A stretch of DNA of 26,117 nucleotides, taken from contig QMKT01000001.1 in the NCBI GenBank assembly GCA_003646505.1, positions 1 through 26,117 of the forward strand. The letters run 5' to 3'. Each line of letters opens with the position of its first letter. Position 1 is the first letter of the stretch. Below the pieces are notes generated by a model. It made no database searches and was not told the origin of the DNA. It saw only the letters and a list, made by a program, of their open reading frames with translations. A program made the position numbers and the translations under genes. This DNA is from Campylobacterota bacterium (lineage in GTDB: Bacteria; Campylobacterota; Campylobacteria; Campylobacterales; Sulfurovaceae). Positions 2 to 14,578 of the stretch are shown piece after piece.

Positions 2-3000
2 ATGATTGAAAAATTAATTGCATTTTCTGTAAAAAATCGTTTCTTGGTCTTGATGGCTACCCTTTTCATTATTGTAGGGTCTGTTTGGGCTATGAAAAAT
101 ACACCTCTTGATGCACTTCCTGATCTCTCTCCTCCACAGGTCATCGTACAAGTTACATGGAAAGGGCAAAGTCCTGAGATCATAGAAGATCAGGGGACCT
201 ACCCTTTAGTATCACAGTTTCTTGCCATTTCAAACATTGAGACGGTACGTGGTTTTTCTGTGTATGAAAATGCATTGATCTACATTATTTTTAAAGAAGG
301 TACAGATCTCTACTGGGCCAGAAGCCGTGTACTTGAACAACTAGCATCAATACAGAGTCAATTACCAGATAGTATGGAAGTGACATTAGGTCCTGATGCA
401 TCAGGTGTAGGATGGGCGTATGAGTATGCACTTACCTCAAAAACAAAAACACTTGATGAACTTAGAACCTTACAGGACTACTACTACAAATATGCACTTA
501 TGGGTGTTGATGGTGTCTCAGAAGTAGCGAGTATTGGTGGGTTTGTACCTACTTATCAGATTACGGTCAATAATGATGCTTTAGTACAATACAACCTATC
601 TATAAGTGACATCTCAAAAACACTGCAAATGAATAACAATGACACAGGTGGACGTATCGTCATTCAAAATGGTTTTGAATGGATGGTTCAGGCCAAAGGA
701 TACATCAAAGACCTCGATGAAATACGTGATCTCGTAGTCACTACTAAAGATGGTGTACCGCTTACACTTGCACAGCTTGGTCGTGTAGAAATGGTACCAG
801 GCGCACGTCGTGGTATGGCTGATCTCAACGGTGAAGGTGAAGTGGTCGGAGGGATAGTCATGGTACGCTATGGGGAAGATGTCTACTCTGCCATTAAACG
901 TATTACAGCCAAAATGGATGAACTCAAGATAGATGATGTTGAAGTCATCACAACGTATGACCGTTCGGGTCTTATCGAAGCAGCGATCAAGACCCTTCAA
1001 ACTACTCTACTGGAAGAGAGTATCATCGTCATCATCATCATTGGATTGTTCTTGATGCACTTTAGATCAACACTCATTATGCTCATTGTTCTGCCTTTAA
1101 CGATAGCCCTGCCATTCTTACTCATGAAACTTTTTGGTATCGGCTCAAATATCATGAGTCTTGGAGGGATCGCCATTGCCATAGGAGCCATGGTTGATGC
1201 CTCCATCGTCATGATAGAAAATGCCCATAAATCCATACATAAACAAGAAGAAGAGAAAGGCAGGGAACTTACCAATGCTGAACGCATAGATGTTATCGTC
1301 AAGTCTTCCCAGTTAGTAGGAAGACCCATCTTTTTTGCGTTAGCACTTGTTGTTGTCTCTTTTTTACCTATTTTTGCACTCTCTGGACAGGAAGGCCTTC
1401 TCTTTTCACCACTTGCATTTACCAAAACATTTGCCATGACTGCGGGTGCAGTACTTTCTATTACTCTGGTACCTGTACTCATGATCTATTTTGTAAAAGG
1501 CAAGATCATACCTGAAGATAAAAACCCTCTCAATCGTTTTTTTATTTGGCTCTATCATCCTATTTTAATTTATGGATTAAAGCTTAAATATCTTGTCATT
1601 TTACTGGCAATAGGAGGACTTGCTTTTGCTGTACCACTCTACCAAAAATTAAACTGGGAATTTATGCCTATGCTTAATGAACAGACTGTTATGTATATGC
1701 CTGTAACACCTTACGGAACTTCTATAGACCAAAGTAAAGTGCTCACACAAAAAACCGATAAAATTATCAAAAGTTTCCCTGAGGTAGATACAGTATTTGG
1801 AAAAGGTGGACGTGCAAATTCACCAACTGATCCTGCACCTCTGGGGATGCTGGAAACGATCATTACCTTTAAACCAAAGTCTGAATGGAGAGAAGGTATG
1901 ACCCATGAAAAGCTTATGGCAGAGATGGAAGAAGCCTTACAAGTGCCCGGTCTGATAAATTCATGGACCTACCCTATCCGTGGTCGTATAGATATGCTTC
2001 TTTCAGGTATTCGTACACCTATAGGTATAAAACTCTATGGTAAAGATGCTGACGGACTACAAGAGGTAGCACAGCAGATAGAATCCAGACTACGTAATCT
2101 TAAAGGTACACAGTCTGTCTTCTCTGACCAAGCTTCAGCTGGTTTTTTTATAGACATAGACATAGATACCGAAGCCTTGCAGCGTTATAACATTTCAAAA
2201 TCACTCATTCAGGAGTATACCTCTGCCGCTATAGGAGGGAAAAAAATAACAACTATGTATAAGGGCTTAGAACGTTATCCTATTGCACTTCGTTTTGAAG
2301 AAGAAGAACGTAGAAATCTCGATGATATTAGAAATATTCAAGTTAAGACCCCCCTAGGCTTTGTACCACTTTCAACTTTTGCAAAAATAGAGTACCGCCA
2401 AAGTGCCTCAGTCATCAAATCCGAGATGGCTACACCGGTGACCTTTGTTTACATCACACCACAAACAGGTATGTCTGCAACCAAATACAAAGAACAAGCC
2501 ATGCTCGTACTTGAAGACTTAAAACTACCTGCCGGATACTATTTGGAATGGGCAGGACAGTCTGAATATCTGGAGTCTGCCATGCAAAAGATCAAATGGA
2601 TAGTTCCTACGGTACTTTTAGTTATCTTTATACTCATCTACTTTGCATTAGGGCAGATAGTTCCAACACTCATCGTATTCTTTACACTGCCATTTGCACT
2701 ATTTGGAGGACTTGTTTACATCGATATGTTAAGCTTTAACATGTCCATAGCCGTTATCGTAGGATTCTTGGCACTGTTAGGTGTTGCTGCAGAAACTGCT
2801 ATTGTAATGATCGTTTATTTACAAGAGAGTGTTGAAGAGATGAGAAAAAATGTAGGTAAAGACTTTAACAGAAAACACCTTTCTCATGCTATCTATGAAG
2901 GTGCTGTTCAGCGGGTAAGACCTAAACTTATGACTGTCTTTGCCATCTTAGCTGGACTGTTGCCTATCATGTACACAACCGGCGTAGGAAGCGAAGTGAT

Positions 3001-3145
3001 GCAACGTATAGCCGCACCAATGATCGGAGGGGTTGTTTCTTCAGCAGTACTGAGCCTTTTACTCATTCCTATCTTCTATGATATGTATGAGAAATATCTC
3101 TTAAAAAAAGACAATACTCTGACTATCAATCAAAAGGATACTTAA
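2..3145 (+). CDS. cusA: CusA-type heavy-metal (Cu/Ag) RND efflux pump, inner-membrane subunit
   Basis: This 1047-residue protein has the same length as E. coli CusA and starts with the canonical HME-RND opening (MIEKLIAFSVKNRF). It is a proton-driven inner-membrane transporter that, with a periplasmic adaptor and an outer-membrane channel, expels Cu(I)/Ag(I) from the periplasm or cytosol. TM4 carries the proton-relay Asp399 in AIGAMVDASIVMIEN. The three methionines that bind copper in CusA (M573, M623, M672) are matched here by Met566 (YMP), Met616 (GMLET) and Met665 (RIDML), at a constant offset of 7, so a monovalent Cu/Ag substrate is favoured over Zn/Co (CzcA). The ATG lies at the left edge of the window, so the expected CusB and CusC partners would be upstream and out of view. 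The stop is 2 nt from the next ATG (TAA-AT-ATG), so translation is probably coupled to the lipoprotein gene. Confidence 0.93.
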   Translation: MIEKLIAFSVKNRFLVLMATLFIIVGSVWAMKNTPLDALPDLSPPQVIVQVTWKGQSPEIIEDQGTYPLVSQFLAISNIETVRGFSVYENALIYIIFKEGTDLYWARSRVLEQLASIQSQLPDSMEVTLGPDASGVGWAYEYALTSKTKTLDELRTLQDYYYKYALMGVDGVSEVASIGGFVPTYQITVNNDALVQYNLSISDISKTLQMNNNDTGGRIVIQNGFEWMVQAKGYIKDLDEIRDLVVTTKDGVPLTLAQLGRVEMVPGARRGMADLNGEGEVVGGIVMVRYGEDVYSAIKRITAKMDELKIDDVEVITTYDRSGLIEAAIKTLQTTLLEESIIVIIIIGLFLMHFRSTLIMLIVLPLTIALPFLLMKLFGIGSNIMSLGGIAIAIGAMVDASIVMIENAHKSIHKQEEEKGRELTNAERIDVIVKSSQLVGRPIFFALALVVVSFLPIFALSGQEGLLFSPLAFTKTFAMTAGAVLSITLVPVLMIYFVKGKIIPEDKNPLNRFFIWLYHPILIYGLKLKYLVILLAIGGLAFAVPLYQKLNWEFMPMLNEQTVMYMPVTPYGTSIDQSKVLTQKTDKIIKSFPEVDTVFGKGGRANSPTDPAPLGMLETIITFKPKSEWREGMTHEKLMAEMEEALQVPGLINSWTYPIRGRIDMLLSGIRTPIGIKLYGKDADGLQEVAQQIESRLRNLKGTQSVFSDQASAGFFIDIDIDTEALQRYNISKSLIQEYTSAAIGGKKITTMYKGLERYPIALRFEEEERRNLDDIRNIQVKTPLGFVPLSTFAKIEYRQSASVIKSEMATPVTFVYITPQTGMSATKYKEQAMLVLEDLKLPAGYYLEWAGQSEYLESAMQKIKWIVPTVLLVIFILIYFALGQIVPTLIVFFTLPFALFGGLVYIDMLSFNMSIAVIVGFLALLGVAAETAIVMIVYLQESVEEMRKNVGKDFNRKHLSHAIYEGAVQRVRPKLMTVFAILAGLLPIMYTTGVGSEVMQRIAAPMIGGVVSSAVLSLLLIPIFYDMYEKYLLKKDNTLTINQKDT

Positions 3146-3147
3146 AT

Positions 3148-3519
3148 ATGAAATTAAAAATCTTTTCAACACTATTATGTACACTTGCACTGCTCTCAGG
3201 CTGTTCAGGAGAAAAAAAAGAATCTATCACAGAAGGTGGTATGAAGTGTGGGCCAGGTAAATGTGGAGCAAGTATGGTAGATGGTTCAGCAGTACTTGTC
3301 AAAAAAAAGATGAATATTTTAAACCAACTTACTGAGGATGACGACAGAAGAGACTGTGTACTGAAGTCTATGACAACCAAAGAACTCTATGCGTGCGTAC
3401 GTGTTAAAGAGACAGGGAGGTTAAGTACAAAATGTGCATCAGACAACACTAAGGTATCGCCAAATAAAGGTGTCGCAACTATGAAGTGTGAAGCAGGAAA
3501 ATGCGGTAGCACTATGTAA
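3148..3519 (+). CDS. Small Cys-rich lipoprotein with two MKCxxGKCG motifs, CusA-linked
   Basis: This 123-residue protein belongs to no named family that I recognise. The N-terminus is a lipoprotein signal with a lipobox LSGC (residues 16-19), so Cys19 should be acylated and the protein anchored facing the periplasm. Two near-identical nonapeptides, MKCGPGKCG and MKCEAGKCG, lie near the mature N-terminus and at the very C-terminus. Between them are three further Cys (in RDCVL, ACVRV, TKCAS). The gene follows cusA by 2 nt with no separate promoter, so it is probably co-transcribed with the efflux pump. Soft thiolate/thioether ligands (Met plus Cys pairs) plus this context suggest copper or silver binding, perhaps as a chaperone or buffer for the pump. 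That role is inference. The same motif ends the membrane protein at 10845-11630. Confidence 0.72.
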   Translation: MKLKIFSTLLCTLALLSGCSGEKKESITEGGMKCGPGKCGASMVDGSAVLVKKKMNILNQLTEDDDRRDCVLKSMTTKELYACVRVKETGRLSTKCASDNTKVSPNKGVATMKCEAGKCGSTM

Positions 3520-4122: not shown

Positions 4123-4437
4123 TTAACAACTAGGTATATTTCCTGAATCTTTTGCATATTCATATGCAAAATCATAGACATGAGGAACATATTTAGCTTT
4201 TATTTTTGCTTTAGGACACAGTTTTTTTACCTCTGCTGCAAACTTTCCAGCTTCATTGATAGATTCCCATTCATCTTGAGTATGCTTATGTGCAAACTTT
4301 GCTCCAGAGAAACCACAAGGTGCTTTTAACTTCTTGAGATAGATCTTCTGACCTTTTTTAACATCTGCCATAGCAGTTGTTGAAAGCAATGTCAATCCAA
4401 GCAAAGAAGCAACTGCGAATTTAGTAATGTTATTCAT
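4123..4437 (-). CDS. Small exported three-Cys protein, paralogue A (cytochrome-like, no CxxCH)
   Basis: This 104-residue protein has a clear signal peptide ending TAMA (about residue 24). The mature part starts with KKGQKIYLKKLKAPC, which resembles the first helix of class I cytochromes, but the haem motif CxxCH is absent. Instead there is C-G-F-S-G followed by FAHKHTQDEWE. Other conserved points shared with the neighbour at 4565-4888 are KLCPK, a Tyr-rich YDFAYEYAK and a C-terminal Cys, for three Cys in all. I do not know a function. Possibilities are a degenerate cytochrome, a thiol-redox protein or a His/Cys metal site. It has its own -10 box (4468-4463), and AAGGA lies 10 nt before the ATG. 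Confidence 0.72.
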   Translation of the reverse strand: MNNITKFAVASLLGLTLLSTTAMADVKKGQKIYLKKLKAPCGFSGAKFAHKHTQDEWESINEAGKFAAEVKKLCPKAKIKAKYVPHVYDFAYEYAKDSGNIPSC

Positions 4438-4564: not shown

Positions 4565-4888
4565 TTAACATTTTGGAACGTGTGAGCCACCTTTTCCATA
4601 TTCGTAAGTGAACTCATAAATATCGTCCCACCACGCTTTTTTTATCTTCCCTTTTTTCAATTTAGGGCATAATTTATATGTTTCCTTCGCAAAATCTCCA
4701 TCATCATAGATCTCTTCCCACTCATCCTGTGTATGCATTCTTGCAAAACGTACACCTGATACTCTGCAGTACTTACGAAGTTTCTTTTTGTAAAGTTTTT
4801 GTCCTTTTGCCAAACTTGCAGATGAGGTAGTTGGCGTACTCATCATAGCAACTGCTACTATTGTAACGACTGATAACAATTTTTTCAT
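4565..4888 (-). CDS. Small exported three-Cys protein, paralogue B (cytochrome-like, no CxxCH)
   Basis: This 107-residue protein is a tandem paralogue of the gene at 4123-4437. It has a signal peptide (first ~25 residues), then KGQKLYKKKLRKYC, VSGVRFARMHTQDEWEEI, YKLCPK and IYEFTYEYGK, ending in PKC. The order and spacing of the three Cys and the HTQDEWE block are conserved between the two copies, and the mature part is strongly basic. CxxCH is absent, so covalent haem attachment is not expected. A ribosome site AAGGAAG precedes the ATG. It lies 60 nt after the end of the kinase-cytochrome operon on the same strand and could be reached by read-through. Function unknown. Confidence 0.72.
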   Translation of the reverse strand: MKKLLSVVTIVAVAMMSTPTTSSASLAKGQKLYKKKLRKYCRVSGVRFARMHTQDEWEEIYDDGDFAKETYKLCPKLKKGKIKKAWWDDIYEFTYEYGKGGSHVPKC

Positions 4889-4948
4889 TATTCTTCCTTT
4901 TTTGTCTGTTTTAATCTAACCTTGTCCATAGGTATCATACTATTGTAA

Positions 4949-5293
4949 CTATTTCAACTTATCAATTACCTTAAACCTTTCCCAATAGATATCTAATACT
5001 TCATCTATCTGTGTGTCATTCAATGTTGTTTTCTGTTTTATTCCATAATTATCGATAAACAGATCAGACATAACAGAGATCTCTTTTAAGGGATATTTCA
5101 AATAATGTTTAAGACCTGCCTTGACATTTTTTTCTCCTCCATAAACAAGAAGATAACGCATAAACATACGTTGTAAAGAAGTAGGTAATTCTCTATGACA
5201 TTCAACACAATAACGTTCATAGGCATCCGATGAAGACAACTGTGTAGATGCTCCAGATATCAGTAACACTGCCAATAGTACAGGTTTTACCAT
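4949..5293 (-). CDS. Exported CxxCH cytochrome-like protein overlapping the sensor kinase gene
   Basis: This 114-residue protein has a short signal sequence (hydrophobic PVLLAVLLISGA) and a single haem-binding motif CVECH at residues 29-33. The remainder (RELPTSLQRMFMRYLLVYGG, then a C-terminal TQIDEVLDIYWERF helix) is cytochrome-like in shape but diverged. An axial Met is not obvious; Met56 of classical small cytochromes has no clear counterpart. The ATG falls inside the last codons of the upstream histidine kinase (7-nt overlap), with no Shine-Dalgarno of its own, which implies translational coupling. The tight link to a sensor kinase suggests it is either the regulated output or an accessory redox/haem sensor for the kinase. 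Both are inferences. Confidence 0.72.
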   Translation of the reverse strand: MVKPVLLAVLLISGASTQLSSSDAYERYCVECHRELPTSLQRMFMRYLLVYGGEKNVKAGLKHYLKYPLKEISVMSDLFIDNYGIKQKTTLNDTQIDEVLDIYWERFKVIDKLK

Positions 5294-6474
5294 TTTAACA
5301 CCATGCTTGTTCCCTCCCCTTCTTTTGATTTTACCTCAATGGAAATATCATATTCATCCACTATACTTTTAACAATACTCAATCCTACACCAAAACCACC
5401 TTCGGCATTATTAAAGCGTATATACCTGTCAAACATAAAGGGTATGGCCTCTTCATTCAAACCTATACCTGTATCCCAAATGACCAACATTCTTTCTTTC
5501 AATTCTATCCCTACTGTACCATGACGTTTATTATATTTAATGGCATTCGATATCAGATTATCGATCACTCTGGTAAATTTACGTCTGTCTATAGTTATGG
5601 TTGCGTCTTCAAGATCCAAGTTATATTCTAAATGTTTAGACTGTGCTAAACTTGAAAAGTATTCTGCCCTGTCATAAACAAGTTCTCTTATATCGATCAC
5701 TTCATCATGATTTGTCTTCTCCTGCTCCAAGGTCAGATACGTTAAGTCTTTATAGAGTACCGATACTGTTTTAGCGGCAATATTAATACGGCTTAGTTTT
5801 CTTTTATTCTTCTCTACCATGACATCTGTGTCCATCATCTCTATATTGGCCAGTATGGCTGAGAGTGGTGTATTGAGTTCATGGGTTGTATCTTTGATGA
5901 ACCGGTCAAGTAACAATATAGAATCCCGCATTGGTTTCAAAAACAATTTAGCAAGGTAAAGCCCAAAAAGCATAAAAATAAGAAAAGAGATCAAACCATA
6001 CCCTATAATATTTTTCCATATTTCCCCTCTCCAAGCGCCACTGTCTTCTACTTCTATAATAAGATATTTTGTTCCCAAATAAAATTCATCCAGTGTCTTC
6101 ACTAAATGTATATACTTATGGGTCATATATATTTCTTCATGGAAACGTATATTTTCATCTTCTATCAAAGAAAATATTCTGGTAAGTTCAAAATCATAAA
6201 TAGCTGATTTGAAGCGAAGATCACGAGGATAGTCAATTCTTTCATCAAAAAAATGATGTAAGACTTTAAGTCTTTTTGTTTGGATATACGCGTATTTGGT
6301 CAACATGGCTCTTTGGTCAGAAAGCATAAGTTTTTCCTGACTCTGATAGTAAAACAGTGAAAGTAACGTGATCGAAAAGATCACCATAGCAACATAAAGT
6401 GTTAGAAACCTAAAAAGAGATTTTTTCTCACTTTTCAGTAATGAATTTGTAGCCTTGTTTTTTGATACTAACAA
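5287..6474 (-). CDS. Membrane sensor histidine kinase (OmpR-partner class)
   Basis: This 395-residue kinase has TM1 at about residues 20-42, a periplasmic sensor of about 110 residues, TM2 at about 157-176, then HisKA and HATPase domains. The phospho-acceptor is His198 in TTHELNTPLS. The N box (VIDNLISNAIKYNK), G1 box (VIWDTGIGL) and G2 box (GFGVGLSIVK) are intact, so it should be active. There is no HAMP or PAS domain that I can see. The start is TTG at 6474, which overlaps the regulator gene by 47 nt. It is preferred because AAGGA lies 5 nt upstream and the next in-frame ATG would fall inside TM1. The sensor region is not recognisable. Neighbours (trxC, cytochromes, cusA) hint at a redox, metal or envelope-stress signal. 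Confidence 0.88.
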   Translation of the reverse strand: MLVSKNKATNSLLKSEKKSLFRFLTLYVAMVIFSITLLSLFYYQSQEKLMLSDQRAMLTKYAYIQTKRLKVLHHFFDERIDYPRDLRFKSAIYDFELTRIFSLIEDENIRFHEEIYMTHKYIHLVKTLDEFYLGTKYLIIEVEDSGAWRGEIWKNIIGYGLISFLIFMLFGLYLAKLFLKPMRDSILLLDRFIKDTTHELNTPLSAILANIEMMDTDVMVEKNKRKLSRINIAAKTVSVLYKDLTYLTLEQEKTNHDEVIDIRELVYDRAEYFSSLAQSKHLEYNLDLEDATITIDRRKFTRVIDNLISNAIKYNKRHGTVGIELKERMLVIWDTGIGLNEEAIPFMFDRYIRFNNAEGGFGVGLSIVKSIVDEYDISIEVKSKEGEGTSMVLKW

Positions 6475-7099
6475 TTTTTTCCTTACCTATCATTTTACGA
6501 AGATTCTTAATGTATGTACGTAATGCTGTATCACTGGGTTCTTCATCATAGTCCCACAAATGTTCATAGATACGCTCATGTGCTATAACTTCACCTTCTG
6601 TTTTCATGAACAATTTAAGCAGCATCGATTCTTTATGTCCCAGTGATACCGTTTCATTATCTATGATGAGTTCATTGTTTTTAATATCGTATTCAATGTT
6701 GTCTGCAATCTTAATACACTCTTTTGACTCATGAAAAAAACCACGCTTAAGCAATGTATCAACCCGTATATAAAGTTCTTTCAGAACAAAAGGTTTTCTT
6801 ATATAATCATCACAACCACTATCAAAACCTTTTTCCAAGTCATCTACCGAATCTAAAGAAGTAATAAAAATGGCTGGTGTAAGTACACCACCTTCTCTAG
6901 CCTCTTTCAAAAGATCAAATCCATTGATACCTGGTGTATGAACATCCAATAGAAGCAAGTCGTACTTACTTTCATACAGTTTTTCCTGTGCGTCATATCC
7001 ATCATAGACCGACAGAACATCATAACCTTTCTCTGTAAGAAATTCCGTCATGGTTTCATTTAGATTGGCATCATCTTCCAGTAAAAGTATTTTACTCAT
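6428..7099 (-). CDS. OmpR/PhoB-family response regulator
   Basis: This 223-residue regulator has a receiver domain at residues 1-118, with acidic pocket Asp9/Asp10, phosphorylation site Asp52 in LLLLDVHTPG, and Lys102 in RKPF. A winged-helix DNA-binding domain occupies about residues 125-223 (RIYEHLWDYDEEPSDTALR, then IKNLRKMIG, KGYKFI). It pairs with the kinase whose gene overlaps its 3' end. Its ATG follows the trxC stop directly, so trxC, regulator, kinase and cytochrome probably form one transcript. The TTCACAA direct repeat at 4484-4501 is a candidate target. Confidence 0.92.
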   Translation of the reverse strand: MSKILLLEDDANLNETMTEFLTEKGYDVLSVYDGYDAQEKLYESKYDLLLLDVHTPGINGFDLLKEAREGGVLTPAIFITSLDSVDDLEKGFDSGCDDYIRKPFVLKELYIRVDTLLKRGFFHESKECIKIADNIEYDIKNNELIIDNETVSLGHKESMLLKLFMKTEGEVIAHERIYEHLWDYDEEPSDTALRTYIKNLRKMIGKEKIVSIKKQGYKFITEK

Positions 7100-7528
7100 C
7101 TACAGATACTGCCTAACCCAGCTTTTTAACTGTTCTTTAGGTAATGCACCAGAGACTCTATCCAACTCTTTAGCATTTTTAAATGCAATGAGTGTGGGTA
7201 TGCTTTGTATACCATATTGTCCACCCAGTGCTTGTTGTTCATCTGTGTTCACTTTAAGAAACTGGGCCTGAAGCGGCATAGAAAGTGACACTTCTTCAAA
7301 GGCAGGAGCCATTTGCAAACAAGGCCCACACCATGGTGCCCAGAAATCTACAATAAGGGGTATCTCAGAATTAGCGATAAAAGTACCAAGTTTAGATGCA
7401 TCAACAGAGACTGGTTTACTTTCAAGCAGTGATCTTTTACACTCTCCACAATTGGCTTTAGCATACGATTCCTTTTTAGGAATACGGTTTACTTTGAGGC
7501 AATGAGGACAAACGACATTAACATTCAT
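7100..7528 (-). CDS. trxC: Thioredoxin 2 (zinc-ribbon thioredoxin)
   Basis: This 142-residue protein carries an N-terminal zinc ribbon (Cys7-x2-Cys10 and Cys27-x2-Cys30) followed by a thioredoxin fold with active site WCGPC at residues 66-70 and the cis-Pro motif SIPTL. It is a cytosolic disulfide reductase. In E. coli TrxC is induced by oxidative stress and the zinc ribbon modulates its redox potential. The gene opens a minus-strand operon with the two-component system. It has an extended -10 promoter at 7579-7571 and GGAG just before the ATG. msrA, whose product is normally recycled by thioredoxin, is transcribed divergently from the same intergenic region. Confidence 0.93.
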   Translation of the reverse strand: MNVNVVCPHCLKVNRIPKKESYAKANCGECKRSLLESKPVSVDASKLGTFIANSEIPLIVDFWAPWCGPCLQMAPAFEEVSLSMPLQAQFLKVNTDEQQALGGQYGIQSIPTLIAFKNAKELDRVSGALPKEQLKSWVRQYL

Positions 7529-7569
7529 AGATAATCTCCATATATTACATTAATTTTTAATTTCTTAGC

Positions 7570-7579
7570 TATTATAGCA
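7570..7579. promoter_or_regulatory. Overlapping divergent -10 boxes of trxC and msrA
   Basis: The minus strand reads TGC-TATAAT (7579-7571), an extended -10 with predicted start near 7564 for trxC. The plus strand of the same bases reads TATTAT (7570-7575), with predicted start near 7582 for msrA. The near-palindrome GCTATTATAGC therefore serves both directions. No clear -35 is seen on either side, as is common in Campylobacterota. Confidence 0.5.
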
Positions 7580-7610
7580 AATAAAGAAATAAAACAATAA
7601 AGGCTTATAA

Positions 7611-8135
7611 TTGAAACAGGAACTCATAGTCGGTGGCGGATGTTTTTGGTGTACTGAAGCAGTATTTGAACTACTAAAAGGTGTCAGTGACGTAGAAAGT
7701 GGCTACGCAAACGGAGAAACTCTCAATCCTACATACACCCAAATATGCACAGGAACTACAGGACATGTAGAGGTCATTAAAATTACATATGATGATGGCA
7801 TTATCACTTCAGATACCCTACTGGATATCTTTTTTCTCGTGCATAACCCCACTACCCTAAACCAGCAAGGTGCAGACAGAGGTACACAATACCGTTCAAC
7901 CATACTCTATACAAATGAAGAGACAAAAGAAGCTGCCGAAGCAGCACTTGAAGCGGCACAAAATGACTACGCTGATCCTATCGTCACTACCATAGAACCT
8001 TTAGATTGTTACTATAAAGCAGAAGCCTACCACCAAGACTACTACAGACAAAATCAGATGCAAGGGTATTGCATGGCAGTGATACCGCCAAAGTTGGCTA
8101 AACTCAAAGCAAAATTTGGGAAAGAGATGGCGTAG
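7611..8135 (+). CDS. msrA: Peptide-methionine (S)-S-oxide reductase
   Basis: This 174-residue enzyme reduces the S-epimer of oxidised methionine in proteins. The catalytic motif GGCFWC is at residues 9-14 with nucleophile Cys11. The C-terminal YYRQNQMQGYCMAVI supplies a probable resolving Cys, and no fused MsrB domain is present. The start is TTG at 7611: the preceding in-frame codon is a stop (7608-7610), no ATG exists before the catalytic motif, and AAAGG lies 7 nt upstream. Divergence from trxC fits the biochemistry, since thioredoxin regenerates MsrA. The stop codon lies in the arm of a shared terminator hairpin. Confidence 0.94.
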   Translation: MKQELIVGGGCFWCTEAVFELLKGVSDVESGYANGETLNPTYTQICTGTTGHVEVIKITYDDGIITSDTLLDIFFLVHNPTTLNQQGADRGTQYRSTILYTNEETKEAAEAALEAAQNDYADPIVTTIEPLDCYYKAEAYHQDYYRQNQMQGYCMAVIPPKLAKLKAKFGKEMA

Positions 8136-8158
8136 AGATAAAACCTATATATCTCTAC
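8132..8158. terminator. Shared terminator whose two arms contain both convergent stop codons
   Basis: A perfect 9-bp stem (GTAGAGATA / TATCTCTAC, 9-nt loop) spans the junction of msrA and the convergent gene. The TAG of msrA (8133-8135) is in the left arm and the TAG of the minus-strand gene (8157-8155) is in the right arm. Confidence 0.5.
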
Positions 8159-8595
8159 ACAAATAACTGTTTATTGATTTTTGTTAAATGACTAAGTTCT
8201 TTTAATGTATAAGGATCCAAAGATGTTTGTTTTATCTTAGAAACCATTCCTACAAGATGGTCATAACTTTTAAAATCTAACGTTTGTTTATGTAATGCTG
8301 CATGACTCAAATACTCTAAGACTTCATTTTTAGTCACAATGTTTTGCATCTGTAGTGTTTCCATCATCATAGCCAACAACATCTCATCTTCTTCACTCAC
8401 AAGGTTTGAAGCCATTTCTTCTGCCACATCCTCATCTAAACCACGGTTATGTAAAATAGTTGAAATATTAGAAACGACAGATTGATTAATATGTTGACTT
8501 TGTATTACCGTATGATGTACGGTCTCCGCTATAACCGGATTTAAAACCAACCCTGAGATGATAAGTGTAAGCGTTATAAATTTTTGTTTATTCAT
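8155..8595 (-). CDS. Exported protein of unknown function
   Basis: This 146-residue protein has a Sec signal peptide (MNKQKFITLTLIISG, cleavage near VIAE, residue ~24). The mature part is predicted mostly helical and acidic, with a Met-rich stretch (EEDEMLLAMMMETLQMQ) and no Cys. I do not recognise a family. AAAGGAT precedes the ATG. It follows the two coiled-coil genes by 64 nt on the same strand and may be their operon partner. Confidence 0.65.
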   Translation of the reverse strand: MNKQKFITLTLIISGLVLNPVIAETVHHTVIQSQHINQSVVSNISTILHNRGLDEDVAEEMASNLVSEEDEMLLAMMMETLQMQNIVTKNEVLEYLSHAALHKQTLDFKSYDHLVGMVSKIKQTSLDPYTLKELSHLTKINKQLFV

Positions 8596-8659
8596 TCTAA
8601 AATCCTTTTGAACTATTGTAGTTAAATAAGGTAAATGAAATAATAGAACTTTATTTTTA

Positions 8660-9310
8660 CTAAGATTCTTTTTCTAAAATGGTAGTATCGACTATCTCTT
8701 CAGTATTCACATTATTGACTAACCCAAGCTGTGGCAATTGATGTAGTTTAGTTGATGTAAAATGTTCTTTTTCAAGTTCTAACTCTTTTATATTTTCTTT
8801 TAATGTATCGATATATTGTCTTTTAGGTTCCAGAATTGTAAGTGTGTTAATACGTTCTAATTCATGGCTAAGATATGCTATTTCAAGCGCTTCTATTTTC
8901 TCTTGTATTTTATACAGTTCTCTTCTTTTTTTAACAAGTAGTTTTGCATATCCTGCTTCATCTACCAGCTCTTTATACTCTGTGTTAAGTTCTTCTATAG
9001 AATAGAGTTTTTGCATAAACTCATCTTGGTGTTGTTCTAGTACTCTATTGTCTATGGCTAACTCCTGTTCCAACGCCACGAGTACCTTTTCTTCTTTTTG
9101 TTTATCATTTACTGCTTTTTCTATACAATTTAGTAGTTTTTCTATCTCTACATTATATCTGCTTATCCCCTCTGCATAAGCTATGGCACCTTGTTTATAA
9201 TAGTTGTCTATTTCGTTAATGATTTCGGGAACAGATGTAGCGGTAGAAGATGTGAGAGTAAGTGTATTTTGTATATTTTCTGTTATATATTTTTTGTTAT
9301 CCTTCATCAT
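8660..9310 (-). CDS. Coiled-coil protein of unknown function
   Basis: This 216-residue protein lacks a signal peptide or membrane segment. Apart from the first ~25 residues (Thr/Ser-rich) and the last ~25, it is almost continuous Glu/Lys/Leu-rich heptad-like sequence (for example EEKVLVALEQELAID and KKRRELYKIQEKIEALE), predicting a long coiled coil. It starts 1 nt after the stop of the upstream membrane-anchored coiled-coil gene, so the two products probably act together. The start is one of two consecutive ATGs. No enzyme motif is visible. Confidence 0.65.
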   Translation of the reverse strand: MMKDNKKYITENIQNTLTLTSSTATSVPEIINEIDNYYKQGAIAYAEGISRYNVEIEKLLNCIEKAVNDKQKEEKVLVALEQELAIDNRVLEQHQDEFMQKLYSIEELNTEYKELVDEAGYAKLLVKKRRELYKIQEKIEALEIAYLSHELERINTLTILEPKRQYIDTLKENIKELELEKEHFTSTKLHQLPQLGLVNNVNTEEIVDTTILEKES

Positions 9311-9311
9311 A

Positions 9312-9752
9312 TCAATCCAGATTTACGCGTTTGAGCTGTTGTTCTCTTTTATTTTTGCAGGCTTCTAATTTAGCTACTACTTGGTTTTTAGTACCATCAT
9401 TTATCTTCTCTTCCAAGGTAGTGACAGTATGCTGGAACTCTAAAAATATTTTCTCATTTTCATGTTTTTCTTGTGTGTATTTGTACTCATTTTCTGCATT
9501 AATTTCGCGTAAAAATTTTATTTTCTCTTCTTGCTCTATGATAAGCGCATTATTTTGTTTAAGTATTTTTCCCTGTCTTAAAAAGCTAACTATTAAAACC
9601 AACAGCACAAACAATGTGACAAGACCCATAGATACAATGTATATTTTAGGAAAAGTAATACTATTTTCATTTTCTATAGAAGCTTCTAGCATACTCGACA
9701 TTACTAGAATTAAACCCGTTTTTAACGCTATTTTATTTATTATATTTTTCAT
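9312..9752 (-). CDS. Membrane-anchored coiled-coil protein of unknown function
   Basis: This 146-residue protein has an N-terminal hydrophobic segment (residues ~8-24, ending EAS, possibly a cleaved signal), a strong TM helix at about 36-58, then a charged coiled coil (residues ~62-125) and a basic tail. The coiled coil would be cytoplasmic if the first segment is a signal sequence. AGGA lies 10 nt before the ATG. It is the first gene of a probable three-gene unit with 8660-9310 and 8155-8595. No known family recognised. Confidence 0.62.
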   Translation of the reverse strand: MKNIINKIALKTGLILVMSSMLEASIENENSITFPKIYIVSMGLVTLFVLLVLIVSFLRQGKILKQNNALIIEQEEKIKFLREINAENEYKYTQEKHENEKIFLEFQHTVTTLEEKINDGTKNQVVAKLEACKNKREQQLKRVNLD

Positions 9753-9874
9753 CTTATCATTTTCCTACATGTTAGTTCTTTTATTGTAACAAAATATTTT
9801 TGAGTTATTAGCCCAACCATACCATTCATTATTACAACATCCTAAGTTTCTTTTCATTTATCAGTTAAGATACT

Positions 9875-10072
9875 TTATCTCTCCAAAGGATTATCCGATC
9901 TCTTCTTCACTTTTTTCTCTTGCTCTTCGGAGATAGTGGGTTGCGTAAATTCAACCTGACCTGCAATAATACATCCTTTACATCCAGGTTCACAGTGATG
10001 ATACAGTTTTAAACACCACTCTGTATCATTTCCCTTTGTACCCATGAACTGACATCCCCAACCAGAGCTCAT
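9875..10072 (-). CDS. Small Cys-rich protein (CEPGCKGC motif)
   Basis: This 65-residue protein starts MSSGWGCQFMG and contains five Cys at positions 7, 20, 27, 31 and 34, the last three in HCEPGCKGC. It then has a charged, probably disordered tail (SEEQEKKVKKRSDN). The Cys arrangement suggests a small metal or Fe-S site, but no family is recognised with confidence. The start is supported by AGGA 7 nt upstream. It lies 12 nt after the acylphosphatase stop, as the last gene of a three-gene minus-strand unit. Confidence 0.66.
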   Translation of the reverse strand: MSSGWGCQFMGTKGNDTEWCLKLYHHCEPGCKGCIIAGQVEFTQPTISEEQEKKVKKRSDNPLER

Positions 10073-10084
10073 CTGCTTATCCTG

Positions 10085-10357
10085 CTATCGTATTTCAAAA
10101 CCATCCGTTGTAAACTCTGCATCATTAATGATCTCATACTTAATGTCTTCTACGTTACTCAACTGAGATCCATCTTTTAATATACCCATAAAGAGATCAA
10201 ACTCATCGTCAAATATTTCTGCCACCACTTCTACTGTGCCATTACTAAGATTTAGTATATAACCTTTAAACTGTTTTTTCATCAGTGCCTGAGATACAGA
10301 CTTGCGATAAAAAACCCCTTGTACTTTTCCATGAATGATAAACCTATACCACTCCAT
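10085..10357 (-). CDS. acyP: Acylphosphatase
   Basis: This 90-residue cytosolic enzyme hydrolyses acyl phosphates such as carbamoyl or acetyl phosphate. The signature HGKVQGVFYRKS contains the phosphate-binding Arg, and the conserved Asn is in YILNLSNGTVEV. The start at 10357 is preferred over the ATG two codons upstream (10363) because AAGGA lies 5 nt before it but directly abuts the other. The chosen length is also typical for the family. The gene overlaps the end of the TerB-like gene, so expression is coupled. Confidence 0.9.
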   Translation of the reverse strand: MEWYRFIIHGKVQGVFYRKSVSQALMKKQFKGYILNLSNGTVEVVAEIFDDEFDLFMGILKDGSQLSNVEDIKYEIINDAEFTTDGFEIR

Positions 10358-10781
10358 ACTCATCCTTTAGTCCCTGTAAGAACTCCAGTATTCGTTGCTG
10401 AAAAAGTATATCTTCTTCACTCTCCACACATTCATGCAATTGCATAAGAAGTTTCATATCTATTTTACCTGCAAAACGTTTTACAGCTTTGGTTTCTTTT
10501 TCAACAAGTTGAATGAGGTGTTCAAAATCAAGTCCATTCTGGTTAATGATCTTCATATGATATTCATTGATTGTATCTAAAAGCAATTCCGCTCTTTCTG
10601 CATCATCACCATAAATACTTTTTGCAATCACTTTAAGTTTCTCACTTTCACATTCACAGATCGCACCATTTGAGGAGACCATAAGTGTCAAAATTTTTGC
10701 TCTATATTCCAAAGAACTGTGATGATACACTAGAAGTTCCCTAAACATTTTCATAACAGTCCGTTTCAAGCTTTTAAACAC
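10344..10781 (-). CDS. TerB-like (tellurite-resistance-type) helical protein
   Basis: This 145-residue all-helical cytosolic protein has a TerB-like pattern in LEYRAKILTLMVSSNGAICE and SEKLKVIAKSIYGDD, with acidic residues of the kind that form a metal site in TerB domains. The match is by pattern only. The start is GTG at 10781, preferred because AAGGA sits 7 nt upstream; internal ATGs at 10754 and 10748 are less well placed. It is first in a unit with acylphosphatase and the Cys-rich small protein, and divergent from the gene at 10845. Confidence 0.6.
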   Translation of the reverse strand: MFKSLKRTVMKMFRELLVYHHSSLEYRAKILTLMVSSNGAICECESEKLKVIAKSIYGDDAERAELLLDTINEYHMKIINQNGLDFEHLIQLVEKETKAVKRFAGKIDMKLLMQLHECVESEEDILFQQRILEFLQGLKDEYGVV

Positions 10782-10812
10782 TACACTATCCTTAACACTA
10801 TTTTAATCAAAG

Positions 10813-10818
10813 TATACT
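10813..10818 (+). promoter_or_regulatory. Candidate -10 of the TauE/DsbD_2-like gene
   Basis: TATACT at 10813-10818 predicts a start near 10825, 20 nt before the ATG. A TTAACA at 10792-10797 could be a -35 but the 15-nt spacer is short. The core AGTATACT is palindromic, so the same bases could act for the divergent gene. Confidence 0.35.
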
Positions 10819-10844
10819 ATAGTTTTACAAAAGGATTATTACGG

Positions 10845-11630
10845 ATGGGGAACCTCGATCTTATTATCATTCTTACCACGGCTTTTTTAGGCAGTGTAGG
10901 ACATTGCATTGGTATGTGTGGTGGTATTGTTATTGCCTATTCTTCCACAAAGATAGATCAAAAAACAAGTTATTGGGAACAGACCTATGCTCACTTGGCC
11001 TACAACTTTGGCCGTGTCAGCACTTACACCATACTGGGTGCACTATTTGGCTTTGCAGGGCAAGTACTTGCATTTACTCCCACAACAAAAGGTATACTCT
11101 TTGTACTCACAGGTATACTTATGATACTCGCCGGTCTTTCACTTCTTGGCAATCTCAAGTTTTTAAATTCAGCAGAATGGTCTGTTTCAAAATACACCTG
11201 GTATCAAAACAGCTTCAAAAAACTCATGTTGGACAGATCCTATAAAAGTTTTTATCTTTTAGGCTTACTCAATGGGATCATCCCTTGTGGACTTGTCTAC
11301 GCTTTTGCCATCATTGCAGCAAGTACAGCAGATCCACTTTCGGGTGCATTAGTGATGGCAACATTTGGACTGGCTACCATACCTGCACTCTTTTTTTTAG
11401 GATTCATTACCAAATTCTTACAAAAAGGATCACTACGTGGTACTATGATGAAACTGGCTTCCCTGCTGGTTATCCTCTATGGAAGCATCACACTTTACAA
11501 AGGATACAAATTCATAGCACACCCGCAAATGATGAAAGAGCGCATGGATAAAATGCATGGGAGTAGTATGGATGGTACATTAACAGGACAGTTTAACGGT
11601 ATGAAATGTGCACCAGGGAAGTGTGGATAA
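10845..11630 (+). CDS. TauE/SafE (DsbD_2-like) membrane protein with Met/His/Cys metal tail
   Basis: This 261-residue inner-membrane protein has about six TM helices. Two family signatures are present: GHCIGMCGG near residues 20-30 at the end of TM1, and GIIPCGLVYA near residues 145-155. Relatives of this UreH/DsbD_2 type occur near cbb3 oxidase assembly and copper-handling genes and are often annotated as sulfite exporter family. After the last TM comes a tail of about 40 residues rich in Met and His (HPQMMKERMDKMHGSSMDG) that ends MKCAPGKCG, almost the same nonapeptide as in the lipoprotein at 3148-3519. This points to soft-metal (copper) handling rather than sulfite export, by inference. 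AAGGA lies 9 nt before the ATG. Confidence 0.82.
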   Translation: MGNLDLIIILTTAFLGSVGHCIGMCGGIVIAYSSTKIDQKTSYWEQTYAHLAYNFGRVSTYTILGALFGFAGQVLAFTPTTKGILFVLTGILMILAGLSLLGNLKFLNSAEWSVSKYTWYQNSFKKLMLDRSYKSFYLLGLLNGIIPCGLVYAFAIIAASTADPLSGALVMATFGLATIPALFFLGFITKFLQKGSLRGTMMKLASLLVILYGSITLYKGYKFIAHPQMMKERMDKMHGSSMDGTLTGQFNGMKCAPGKCG

Positions 11631-11667
11631 TTTCTTCCCTTTTAGTTGGTTTTAGGAGGATCGTAAA

Positions 11668-11691
11668 AAGCAACTCTAAGTAGAGTTGCTT
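11668..11691. terminator. Bidirectional terminator between convergent genes
   Basis: An 11-bp perfect stem (AAGCAACTCTA / TAGAGTTGCTT) with a 2-nt loop is flanked by A-rich sequence on the left. On the minus strand the stem is therefore followed by a short T run, a good intrinsic terminator for the repeat-protein gene. Confidence 0.75.
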
Positions 11692-11696
11692 AAGTA

Positions 11697-12482
11697 TTAT
11701 TTAATATCTTTTGAGATTGTTTTTGTAGAATCATTTACGTTATCAGAAACACTTTTTAATGAAGCAGAAGAATCAGTTGAAACTTGTTTTACTGAAGCAG
11801 CTGCATTTGTGTTTGTTGATTCAACAGAAGCTCTTGAATCATTAGATACTGTTTTTACAGAATCATTAGTGTTTGTTGCTACTGTATTTACAGATGCTGC
11901 TGAATCATTAGATGCTGTTTTCGCAGATGCTGATGAATCATTAGATACTGTTTTTACAGATGCTGCTGAATCATTAGATACTGTTTTCACAGATGCTGCT
12001 GAATCGTTAGATACTGTTTTTACAGATGCAGTTGAGTCGTTAGATACTGTTTTAACTACATCACTTGAGTCTTTAGATACAGCCATTGCAGAATCTTTCA
12101 TATCTTTAGATGCTACAGTTGAAGAATCTTTAAGATCTTTAGTTGTGTTAGTCAATGCATCTTTAGAATCTGTTGAAACAGCTACTACTGTATCTCTTGA
12201 ATCTTTAGAAGTGTTTACTTCCATTATTCTCATGTCATCAGATACTTTTACAGTTGTATCTTTAGCATCTGCACTTACAGTTGTTACTGATCTTTCAGCA
12301 CTTTTTGAAGTCTCAACAGCACCGTCTTTCATACTTACCATAGAATCTTTAGCATCTTTACTCATGCTAACCATAGCTTCTTTCATGTCTTTAACCATTG
12401 AATTCATATCAAAATCAGACTCAGCCTGAACGCTTGTTAATAATGCAGCTACTGCTACAGAAGTTGTAATAAATTTTTTCAT
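11697..12482 (-). CDS. Exported hendecad-repeat protein (17 tandem 11-residue units)
   Basis: This 261-residue protein has a signal peptide (MKKFITTSVAVAALL, cleavage after VQA, residue 20). From residue 70 to 256 the chain divides without a gap into 17 units of 11 residues with the pattern S-x-D-x-x-x-x-V-x-x-V, for example SNDSAASVKTV. The composition is Ser/Thr/Asp/Val/Lys/Ala with no Cys, Trp, Tyr or Pro in the repeats. Eleven-residue periodicity occurs in LEA group 3 proteins, synuclein-type membrane-binding helices, right-handed coiled coils and type I antifreeze helices. Which applies is unknown. AAGGG lies 7 nt before the ATG and a TATAAT promoter lies upstream. It is flanked by its own promoter and terminator, so it is monocistronic. 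Confidence 0.85.
   Translation of the reverse strand: MKKFITTSVAVAALLTSVQAESDFDMNSMVKDMKEAMVSMSKDAKDSMVSMKDGAVETSKSAERSVTTVSADAKDTTVKVSDDMRIMEVNTSKDSRDTVVAVSTDSKDALTNTTKDLKDSSTVASKDMKDSAMAVSKDSSDVVKTVSNDSTASVKTVSNDSAASVKTVSNDSAASVKTVSNDSSASAKTASNDSAASVNTVATNTNDSVKTVSNDSRASVESTNTNAAASVKQVSTDSSASLKSVSDNVNDSTKTISKDIK
11880..12044. repeat. 33-bp tandem DNA repeat inside the hendecad-repeat gene
   Basis: Five near-identical 33-bp units encode repeat units 8-12 of the protein. The block GAATCATTAGATACTG (with A/G variants) recurs at 11902, 11935, 11968, 12001 and 12034. High DNA identity here compared with the diverged outer units suggests recent expansion or homogenisation, and copy number may vary between strains. 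Confidence 0.85.
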
Positions 12483-12514
12483 TTTGTACCCTTTTATTTT
12501 TTTTGTTATGCAGA

Positions 12515-12520
12515 ATTATA
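12515..12520 (-). promoter_or_regulatory. Candidate -10 of the hendecad-repeat gene
   Basis: TATAAT on the minus strand at 12520-12515 predicts a start near 12508, about 25 nt before the ATG. A 7-bp-arm inverted repeat (AACTTAT / ATAAGTT, 12547-12567) lies about 27 bp upstream of it and could be a regulator site. No clear -35 is seen. Confidence 0.45.
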
Positions 12521-12743
12521 GTAAAACTTATATTAGAGTTAACTTAAACTTATTATAACTATAAGTTCATAGGAATTTATGCCTTATGATTTGTAATGTC
12601 AACATTTAGATTGTCTGCCATACATGCACTCTCTTTTTAATACAGACTTGACTTTTTAATACTAAATTAACTTACTAAGTATAGAATCGATATACTTATG
12701 AAAGGAACCAACTTTTTTGGTTATCAAATTAAAGGAAAAAAGA

Positions 12744-13340
12744 ATGAAAAAAATACTACTTGCAGGACTGATTTCATTACCGATGTTAATGAACACAGCT
12801 CTTATGGCTGACGAGATTGAAGATCAGATACATGCAGGAATCAAAGCATACCAAAATAAAGAGTATAAGATAGCTGCAGATGAGCTAAAGTTTGCGATGG
12901 CTCAAATCGACAAACTTGTCCAGGATGACAATAAAAAACTTCTTCCTCTTGCACTGGACGGCTGGACTAGAGAAACTGATGATAATGCTGCACAGGCTGC
13001 GATGTCTATGCTTGGCGGGGGAACCACTATCGGTGCGAATTATCTGCGTGACAATGAAAATATTCATATCCAGATCATTGCAAACTCGCCGATGATAGCG
13101 ATGGTAGGTATGATGATAAACAACCCTATGATGGCAGCTGCTGATAAAAATACAAAACCATACCGTTATAAACGTATTAAAGGTATCAAAAAGACAGAGG
13201 GGAAAAATACAGAAATCACCCTGCTTCTAGCAGGACAGATCATGGTAAAGATTGATGGTAAAAACCTTAAAAATTCTGCCGTGCTTGAACAATACCTTGA
13301 TGCAATAGATATGAAAAAACTTAAGATGTCATTACTCTAA
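12744..13340 (+). CDS. Exported protein of unknown function with TPR-like N-terminus
   Basis: This 198-residue protein has a signal peptide (MKKILLAGLISLPMLM, cleavage near LMA, residue ~22). The mature N-terminus, IHAGIKAYQNKEYKIAADELKFAMAQI, resembles one tetratricopeptide-type helix pair. It is followed by a Gly-rich AAMSMLGGGTTIGANY and a Met-rich SPMIAMVGMMINNPMMAAA, which are probably part of a beta or membrane-contact segment. I do not recognise a named family. The ATG at 12744 is chosen over an in-frame TTG at 12717 because AAAGGA lies 7 nt before it and the signal peptide begins there. A strong hairpin follows the stop. Confidence 0.75.
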   Translation: MKKILLAGLISLPMLMNTALMADEIEDQIHAGIKAYQNKEYKIAADELKFAMAQIDKLVQDDNKKLLPLALDGWTRETDDNAAQAAMSMLGGGTTIGANYLRDNENIHIQIIANSPMIAMVGMMINNPMMAAADKNTKPYRYKRIKGIKKTEGKNTEITLLLAGQIMVKIDGKNLKNSAVLEQYLDAIDMKKLKMSLL

Positions 13341-13368
13341 ATTAAAAGGGTGTTACTGCCCTTTTAAT
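13341..13368 (+). terminator. Intrinsic terminator after the exported unknown protein
   Basis: A 10-bp perfect stem (ATTAAAAGGG / CCCTTTTAAT) with an 8-nt loop begins immediately after the stop codon. The T-rich second arm provides the U-rich end. Confidence 0.75.
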
Positions 13369-13471
13369 CTAAATATTTTATTGTCTAAATCATATTCATG
13401 TCATTGTTATCAAAGATAAAATATACCCTTACTATTTATCTACCTAATATGCCCACTCTAGATAATAATTT

Positions 13472-13480
13472 TGCTATAAT
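13472..13480 (+). promoter_or_regulatory. Extended -10 promoter of truD, predicting a leaderless mRNA
   Basis: TGC-TATAAT is a perfect extended -10 element. With the hexamer at 13475-13480 the usual start site falls at about 13487, which is the A of the truD ATG. No Shine-Dalgarno precedes the ATG, which agrees with leaderless initiation. Confidence 0.55.
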
Positions 13481-13486
13481 TTCTAC

Positions 13487-14578
13487 ATGAATCACATTAA
13501 AAATTATGCCTATACACATACCCCGCTGCAGTTTGATTTCCAACAGACCATTGAACGTTTTTTTGTTGAAGAGCTCCCTCTTTATACTTTCACAGGTACA
13601 GGTAATTTCCTCATACTCAAAGTGAAAAAAACAGATATGAGTACATGGAAACTCATCACTGTCCTTGCCAAAGCAACAGGATTAGAGGAACGTGACATAG
13701 GGTATGCAGGTCTTAAAGACAAAAATGCAACCACTATACAATACATTTCACTTCCAAAAAGGCATGAAAAAGAGCTCAATAAAAATCTCACCACAGAAAA
13801 AATAGAAATACTCGAACGTACTTACAACAAAGCCCCTATTAAAATAGGACATCTCAAAGGAAACAGGTTTTCCATTATACTGCATGACATTGACAGTAAA
13901 GATGCAAAGTTTTTTAATACCACTGCTAAAAAAATGCAAAAAGACGGTATACCAAACTATTACGGGTACCAACGTTTTGGTGAGGACAGCCGTTCCTATC
14001 TACAAGGGAAAGAGATCGCCCATTCTGGTAAAAGACTCAAAGGAAGTAAAGAGAAATTACTTGTTTCAGCCTATCAAAGCCACCTTTACAACAGATGGCT
14101 AGGTTCACGAGTGAAGCTCTCTACTGTTATTGCTGAAAACAACATAGTTGAGGCAGCTAAAAAACTACAATATCCTGAAGAACTTGTAAAAGTATTGGCA
14201 AAACAGCCTCAATTCTTTAAACTCTTTTTAGGGGATGTCATCATGCCATACCCTTATGGTAAACTCAACTACGTCAAGGATATGTATCAGTCTGCCCAGA
14301 CTTTTGAACAAAAAAAGATATCTCCTACGGGGTTACTTTGTGGTGCAACTGTTGAACGTGCAAAATCTGATGCCTACTATCTGGAAGAACCTTTTGATGA
14401 TACAGAACTGAGTGCCCTCAAAGGAGACAGACGTTTTGCATGGATATGGCCAAAAAAGGTAGAAACAGCCTATGATGAAAATACAAAAAAATTAACCGTT
14501 GAGTTTTACTTGCCTAAGGGATCGTATGCAACAACATTTCTAGAAGAGATCGGAAAATTTTCGTTGAAGGAAAAATAA
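13487..14578 (+). CDS. truD: tRNA pseudouridine(13) synthase TruD
   Basis: This 363-residue enzyme isomerises U13 of tRNA-Glu to pseudouridine. The catalytic motif GYAGLKDKNATT carries Asp78 (Asp80 in E. coli TruD), and the second family block PNYYGYQRFGEDS follows at about residues 157-169. Full length covers the catalytic and insertion domains. The N-terminal FFVEELPLY is the usual TruD opening. The start has no ribosome site and lies exactly at the predicted transcription start. The excalibur-domain gene begins 4 nt after the stop and is probably co-transcribed. Confidence 0.95.
   Translation: MNHIKNYAYTHTPLQFDFQQTIERFFVEELPLYTFTGTGNFLILKVKKTDMSTWKLITVLAKATGLEERDIGYAGLKDKNATTIQYISLPKRHEKELNKNLTTEKIEILERTYNKAPIKIGHLKGNRFSIILHDIDSKDAKFFNTTAKKMQKDGIPNYYGYQRFGEDSRSYLQGKEIAHSGKRLKGSKEKLLVSAYQSHLYNRWLGSRVKLSTVIAENNIVEAAKKLQYPEELVKVLAKQPQFFKLFLGDVIMPYPYGKLNYVKDMYQSAQTFEQKKISPTGLLCGATVERAKSDAYYLEEPFDDTELSALKGDRRFAWIWPKKVETAYDENTKKLTVEFYLPKGSYATTFLEEIGKFSLKEK

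Follow-up and report, generated by a model that had tools for sequence, protein, structure and literature searches.

The nine-residue peptide MKCxxGKCG is a real, non-random and portable tag of the Campylobacterota. It looks like one two-cysteine copper-peptide repeat placed on unrelated exported proteins, without the usual enzyme of this peptide family and tied to a flavoprotein gene cluster. Our preferred reading, which we hold with moderate confidence, is that of a grafted Cu(I)-binding or relay peptide of the exported proteome.

Three copies of the tag in one window

The window analysed here, a stretch of DNA of 26,117 nucleotides, holds the tag twice in a lipoprotein and once in a membrane protein:

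2..3145, + strand: CusA/CzcA heavy-metal RND transporter (TIGR00914, 1019 bits against a cut-off of 701)
3148..3519, + strand: lipoprotein of 123 aa with lipobox Cys19 and two tags, directly downstream of cusA
3241..3267, + strand: tag 1, MKCGPGKCG, in frame; its extended form MKCGPGKCGASM reaches 3276
3481..3507, + strand: tag 2, MKCEAGKCG, in frame; its extended form MKCEAGKCGSTM reaches 3516, with the stop codon next
10845..11630, + strand: DsbD_2 (PF13386, E 2.3e-51) membrane protein of 261 aa, whose C-terminal tail has the tag at its end
11601..11627, + strand: tag 3, MKCAPGKCG, in frame; exact C-terminus of the DsbD_2 protein

The first-pass annotation had located the three copies correctly and in frame, but its remark that two of them stand at an exact C-terminus holds for the DsbD_2 copy alone: the second tag of the lipoprotein is followed by Ser-Thr-Met, and the remark is off by three residues. 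A degenerate DNA pattern that covers all possible codings of the tag (ATG-AAR-TGY-NNN-NNN-GGN-AAR-TGY-GG) gave three matches in the window but no match in any of 100 shuffles, against a composition-based expectation of about 3e-6 occurrences over the open frames of the window. These figures, together with a reversed control pattern that had no match in any listed genome (150 relatives, 397 of a phylum sample and 85 of another genus, g26), rule out an origin by chance. The three copies have only 20-22 of their 27 bases in common, so they are not fresh copies of DNA and a recent duplication can be discarded. The same draft genome, which is 80% complete and has 1.46 Mb in 142 contigs, contains a fourth copy, on contig C49.

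The lipoprotein has no match in either Pfam or NCBIfam. Its first tag (M32, K33, C34, G35, G37, K38, C39 and G40) is invariant in 31 aligned lipoproteins. Among the best 120 of 596 relatives, 114 carry at least two exact tags and 117 have GP in the first one, and among the best 120 of 2436 relatives of the DsbD_2 protein, 119 end in MKCxxGKCG (one in MKCAPEKCG) and 113 have AP between the cysteines; since the best 120 are all close relatives, this conservation is weak evidence. The lipoprotein gene adjoins cusA in 16 of the 17 lipoprotein loci compared; as L025 and L049 are the same, these 16 represent 15 distinct genes. The longer stretches have the gene order cusB, cusA, lipoprotein. In the exception, locus L062, the genes ahead of it encode a heavy-metal P-type ATPase, CopB and multicopper oxidase. 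At L043, where the lipoprotein gene follows cusB and cusA, the tag is present on CusB as well as on the lipoprotein, and in CusB it stands at the start of the mature chain, which in Escherichia coli CusB is a copper-binding region. For the DsbD_2 protein, the charges of its loops suggest a probably periplasmic C-terminus; the tail itself is basic.

Other features of the window and of related loci can be mentioned here. Positions 4123-4437 and 4565-4888 encode two small exported proteins that adjoin and resemble each other (K-GQK-Y-KKL ... HTQDEWE), of which the former has no Pfam match, and positions 11697-12482, on the opposite strand just downstream of the DsbD_2 gene, encode an exported protein of 261 aa made of SVKTVSNDS-like repeats. 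In other lineages (L108, L219 and L281), DsbD_2-like tails show the tag expanded to several GKCG units.

Spread among the Campylobacterota

A search across the phylum found the tag widespread, well beyond the three copies originally noted. It is present in 80 of 150 relatives (own genome included), that is, in 70 of the 78 genomes of the same genus (hereafter the home genus), whose nearest named protein matches are from Sulfurovum, and in 10 of the 72 others. In a sample of the whole phylum it occurs in 48 of 397 Campylobacterota genomes and in 13 of 68 genera, and genus g26 has it in 66 of 85 genomes.

Carrier proteins and placement of the tag

Carriers were identified by reading of frames and a Pfam scan, with signal peptides assigned by visual inspection. 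About a dozen unrelated protein families bear the tag, and their members appear to have a signal peptide or a membrane anchor. They include the following:

NosL: L042 (E 4.1e-16) and L053 (E 2e-4, below its cut-off)
CusB-type HlyD_D23 (E 8.7e-51): L043 and L076
YtkA: L016 and L064
PCuAC: L279 (E 4.5e-38)
HMA: L277 (E 1.9e-13)
Cytochrome c: L036 and L048
DUF4395: L012 and L034
Fer4_5 membrane protein: L055
Others: the lipoprotein of the cusA locus (without Pfam match), a presumably Spy-like protein (our own label; no match in the Pfam scan) and small Cys/Lys-rich exported proteins

In NosL, CusB and YtkA the tag immediately follows the signal peptide; in DsbD_2, PCuAC, HMA and DUF4395 it is found at the C-terminus or a few residues before it, and in the small exported proteins it is repeated in tandem. 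The residue after its first cysteine can be Ala, Glu, Gln, Ser or Thr besides Gly, often with Pro next. Where a grafted tag is not the last part of the protein, it often has the longer form MKCxxGKCGxxM: counted over distinct contexts, Met follows GKCG at position +3 in 9/9 NosL, 3/3 CusB, 2/2 YtkA, 15/18 lipoprotein and 8/10 Spy-like tags. This Met is rarer in small KC-rich proteins (12/47), and DsbD_2 tags lack it altogether (0/15, of which 13 end the protein).

A possible role in copper handling

By its sequence, the core KCxxGKCG is one repeat of the oxazolins. The oxazolin precursor HvfA contains AEGKCGEGKCG, whose cysteines are converted into copper-binding 5-thiooxazoles by the MNIO enzyme HvfB together with HvfC, and its operon includes a DoxX-like protein (available text of PMC13419390). 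A literature search with six exact strings of the tag found no papers. The first-pass annotation, which knew of no description of the tag, agrees with this for the exact strings but overlooked the core, which is the repeat of these copper peptides.

In our preferred reading, MKCxxGKCG would be a portable and flexible peptide that binds Cu(I). It would be a two-cysteine repeat of the oxazolin or EGKCG kind (KCGEGKCG) used on its own, grafted N-terminally, C-terminally or in tandem on proteins that encounter copper or electrons in the periplasm. The two cysteines and one or two flanking methionines would capture Cu(I), and the tail would hand the ion between partners: lipoprotein, CusB and CusA in one set, and NosL, PCuAC and cytochrome oxidase assembly in another. 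We infer the binding of Cu(I), its hand-over and the periplasmic side of the tag.

A portable soft-metal site, or a docking or transfer peptide, had been proposed from the window alone. Portability is well supported by the unrelated carriers, and copper is indicated by context (NosL, PCuAC, HMA, CusB and the lipoprotein adjoining cusA): NosL, HMA and CusB handle copper, and the Pfam name of PCuAC marks it as a copper chaperone. The tag, however, is not confined to copper proteins, and for its cytochrome c, Spy-like, DUF4395 and Fer4_5 carriers we know of no copper role. CusB and PCuAC also have Met- and His-rich copper-binding ends. The tag resembles these ends as a flexible periplasmic terminus of a copper protein, and it differs from them as a fixed Cys-based motif, with invariant Lys and Gly, common to unrelated proteins.

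Other observations also count against the copper reading. Among the tagged genes of four well-sampled genomes, the copper-linked carriers (NosL, CusB and the lipoprotein adjoining cusA) make up half or less (3/6 in G015, 2/6 in G050, 2/6 in G023 and 2/5 in G003). Metal ligation alone gives no explanation for the invariant Lys and Gly. Finally, the DsbD_2 tags and most of those in small KC-rich proteins lack the +3 Met.

A flavoprotein gene pair that accompanies the tag

Contig C49 (locus L081) carries a DoxX gene (PF07681, E 5.9e-20) beside a KCG peptide, three KC-rich small proteins in all, a Gluconate_2-dh3 (Gluc3) protein and a GMC oxidoreductase (PF05199, 6.2e-20; PF00732, 3.2e-13). GMC is present in 69 of the 397 phylum genomes: in 43 of 48 with the tag and in 26 of 349 without it (Fisher 9e-34), or, once the home genus is left out, in 33 of 38 and 26 of 348. 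Counted by genus, GMC occurs in 10 of the 13 that have the tag and in 11 of the remaining 55 (p 2e-4). Kinship is ignored in all these figures. Within g26, 62 of the 85 genomes have tag and GMC, 4 the tag only, 1 GMC only and 18 neither (p 1e-13, kinship again ignored), and NosL, taken there as a control for a tag-linked gene, shows no association (p 0.11, in the opposite direction). A GMC gene truncated at a contig end may escape detection, as in G066, which was scored as GMC-less although a GMC fragment ends L077.

This co-occurrence favours an alternative in which the tag is the recognition and modification site of the exported Gluc3/GMC flavoenzyme, which would oxidise its Lys-Cys-Gly after export as a periplasmic counterpart of the cytosolic MNIO and PME1; we consider it rather unlikely. 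The export of the pair by the Tat pathway was judged by eye from RR signal sequences, and a periplasmic enzyme would account for tags anywhere on unrelated carriers. Gene order speaks in the same direction, as some loci in eight families group the pair with KCG peptides, and often also with DoxX:

Same strand, in the order KCG peptide, DoxX, Gluc3, GMC: L258 and L259 (f10), L260 (f13), L285 (f16), L289 (f8)
Same strand, no DoxX found: L267 and L268 (f16), L288 (f2)
Divergent neighbours: L250 and L251 (f20), L063 (f6), and in the home genus L041, L060, L077 and L081

In L285, from one g26 genome, the run continues on one strand (4795-13638) from KCG peptide, DoxX, Gluc3 and GMC into cusB, cusA and the tagged lipoprotein.

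The sequence of the enzyme also argues for this alternative. The nearest solved relatives of GMC are FAD glucose and fructose dehydrogenases (6a2u, E 7.5e-44), and its residues were read by alignment to 6a2u, 7w2j, 8k6j and 8xcn. All 53 GMC entries have Leu at the position of His1147 of fructose dehydrogenase (Ala in 8k6j, named H1147A) and Ala or Pro at that of the second Asn (Ala in 8xcn), and all 53 keep three Cys aligned with cysteines of the Fe-S type; these entries (52 distinct, 31 from the home genus, with one gene twice, and 22 others) are mostly from one genus and thus far from independent. The pair therefore resembles the large subunit of FAD glucose and fructose dehydrogenases (6a2u, 7w2j) in its GMC family, its three Fe-S-type Cys and the adjoining Gluc3 gene, but the loss of the catalytic His (to Leu) and of the second Asn (to Ala or Pro), along with its place beside KCG peptides and DoxX in many loci, sets it apart, and the loss of both residues would make an ordinary sugar dehydrogenase unlikely. 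Cj0414/0415 of Campylobacter jejuni has been described as a gluconate dehydrogenase. In G018, G056, G067, G388, G383 and other genomes, the sequence search reports GMC genes with in-frame stops.

Several results weigh against a flavoenzyme that acts on the tag. GMC is absent from 5 of the 48 tagged genomes of the phylum sample and from 4 of the 66 of g26, and the co-occurrence is in part plain linkage, since the tag lies within 7.5 kb of GMC in 39 of the 57 g26 GMC genomes with listed positions (not in the other 18). With a filter for KC peptides, which is imperfect (it missed L041, L078 and L079, where such peptides are visible by eye), such a peptide was found in none of the 20 control loci (10 kb each), in 16 of 19 MNIO loci and in 16 of 30 GMC loci, ten of the latter (L041, L060, L062, L063, L081 and L285-L289) having been chosen for their tags. 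The other twenty (L250-L269), hand-picked from GMC matches, gave seven positives, of which two (L267 and L268) were previously known tag neighbours, leaving 5 of 18; the 13 negatives include all six loci from untagged f8 genomes. A looser filter found a KC peptide in 26 of 30 GMC loci of the home genus. Extended to the whole phylum, this alternative would mean that Campylobacterota possess a second, flavin-based periplasmic route, wherein an exported Gluc3/GMC pair that has lost its sugar-oxidising residues would recognise the short KCG tag itself in place of a leader, and would oxidise or service any exported bearer, so that copper sites would arise by tag-directed modification after export. 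We regard this wider proposal as unlikely, and as somewhat more doubtful than the recognition site itself.

Other neighbours were considered as partners. In L081 (G000:C49), next to the KCG/DoxX cluster of the home genus, positions 1042-1779 encode a fusion of a ferredoxin-thioredoxin reductase beta chain with a rhodanese domain. L063 encodes a protein with a Glu_synthase domain (PF01645) near DoxX, and similar proteins lie near DoxX in L062, L080, L286 and L287; these loci are from several families and have MNIO or GMC. Each of the two neighbours was rejected as a general partner, for it is found in part of the loci only, and GMC/Gluc3 is preferred. Among the titles listed by literature searches, none links GMC and DoxX with copper peptides, and neither GMC nor gluconate is mentioned in the texts of the MNIO papers that were checked; for Sulfurovum, copper and lipoprotein no relevant title was found, nor a relevant passage in the available text of a Nitratiruptor copper paper.

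A redox-active dithiol (CxxGKC) that swaps disulphides with DsbD_2, GMC or DoxX, with the metal as incidental, is an improbable alternative. DsbD_2 belongs to a group of thiol-disulphide carriers, and the tagged set includes cytochromes and is accompanied by a flavoprotein, as this alternative would have it. Nevertheless, a metal site agrees better with the strictness of Lys and Gly, with the flanking Met and with the carriers PCuAC, HMA, NosL and CusB.

Relation to copper peptides modified by MNIO enzymes

Because the tag and the oxazolins have the core KCxxGKCG in common, the tags could be ordinary cores of MNIO-modified captophorins whose MNIO was overlooked. A precursor with the exact MKCGAGKCG lies directly upstream of MNIO in one genome, G183 (locus L200). 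Yet MNIO (PF05114) is found in none of the 78 genomes of the home genus, several of which are 99-100% complete, although the same search detected it in 7 of the 150 relatives. In the phylum sample it occurs in 27 of 397 genomes (25 over the cut-off), and a small precursor of the KCGAGKCG type lies alongside in 20 of the 22 Campylobacterota genomes whose MNIO loci were read. In 20 distinct MNIO-linked precursors, Gly follows the first Cys in all 56 CxxxxCG units, as collected with a filter that required KC and then G, A or S, against the varied residues and the Pro of the tags.

The MNIO system FonBC tolerated Pro at no site, and in double variants only Ala replaced the Gly after Cys, apart from one other variant, with Tyr after Cys, which was modified once (available text of PMC13097082). 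Measured against these preferences of FonBC and of the precursors, the tags with Pro and with residues other than Gly are unlikely MNIO substrates: an oxazolin would have a small residue after Cys and no Pro, and many of the tags depart from this. In the own genome, the small KCG proteins next to DoxX (L081) do look like exported precursors with repeated (E)GKCG/KCG units; the single grafted tags do not. Moreover, no PME-like open reading frame (PME1/DUF2063 partner) was seen in the 30 GMC loci, against 19 of 19 MNIO loci. We thus hold an overlooked MNIO to be very improbable. Neither is the Gluc3/GMC pair a strict substitute for MNIO, as five f8 genomes have both (Fisher p 0.78, with the 25 MNIO genomes above the cut-off; G273, with a weak MNIO below the threshold, also has GMC).

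With the oxazolins and captophorins (Buf_EGKCG, Lys-Cys group: HvfA and FonA), the tagged proteins have in common their export, KCGxGKCG cores, DoxX in the cluster and a copper context. The tag differs in being single and grafted on so many families, with Met before Lys, Pro, Glu or Gln between the cysteines and Gluc3/GMC nearby, and with no MNIO found in the genus and no PME1 seen in GMC loci. Fusions of bufferin domains to MerC, cytochrome c or EF-hand proteins are also similar, as a copper-peptide domain fused to another exported protein, cytochrome c included; however, the available text of PMC12452194 describes few cases, of whole domains found through MNIO genes, unlike a tag of 9-12 residues on many families with no MNIO found. 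According to the same text, EGKCG precursors rarely occur without MNIO, and would then presumably be unmodified or non-functional.

Outside this context, a scan of a species-genome collection gave at least 118 stretches with the nine-residue motif; among the matches listed, 103 of 118 read MKCxxGKCGxC, which we take to be a [2Fe-2S] site of AsrB/HydG-like proteins. Twelve of the remaining 15 have titles: nine Campylobacterota, two Bacteroidetes and one that looks like a chance match, a 33-aa frame (L148). The two Bacteroidetes proteins (L100 and L159) are lipoproteins with GKCG repeats and the exact motif; neither MNIO nor GMC was recognised among the open reading frames read in their stretches of about 3.6 and 4.1 kb. 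That the tag itself is chance or such a [2Fe-2S] motif, as those 103 stretches would suggest, is scarcely credible, since the reversed pattern is silent and the third Cys (GKCGxC) occurs in 0 of 156 occurrences in Campylobacterota loci (duplicates included), which rules out the [2Fe-2S] site there.

Implications

Members of Sulfurovum, which are frequent at vents and in sulfidic water, depend on copper for their respiration. Under the preferred reading of a grafted Cu(I) peptide, the core of a copper peptide would serve as an interchangeable tag across many exported protein families, and the set of tagged proteins points to copper trafficking via short common tails. The home genus would also be a lineage-wide exception to the rule, as given in the available text of PMC12452194, that precursors of the EGKCG type rarely lack MNIO. 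Finally, the Gluc3/GMC pair offers a concrete candidate partner for the tag, with a role that is open to test.
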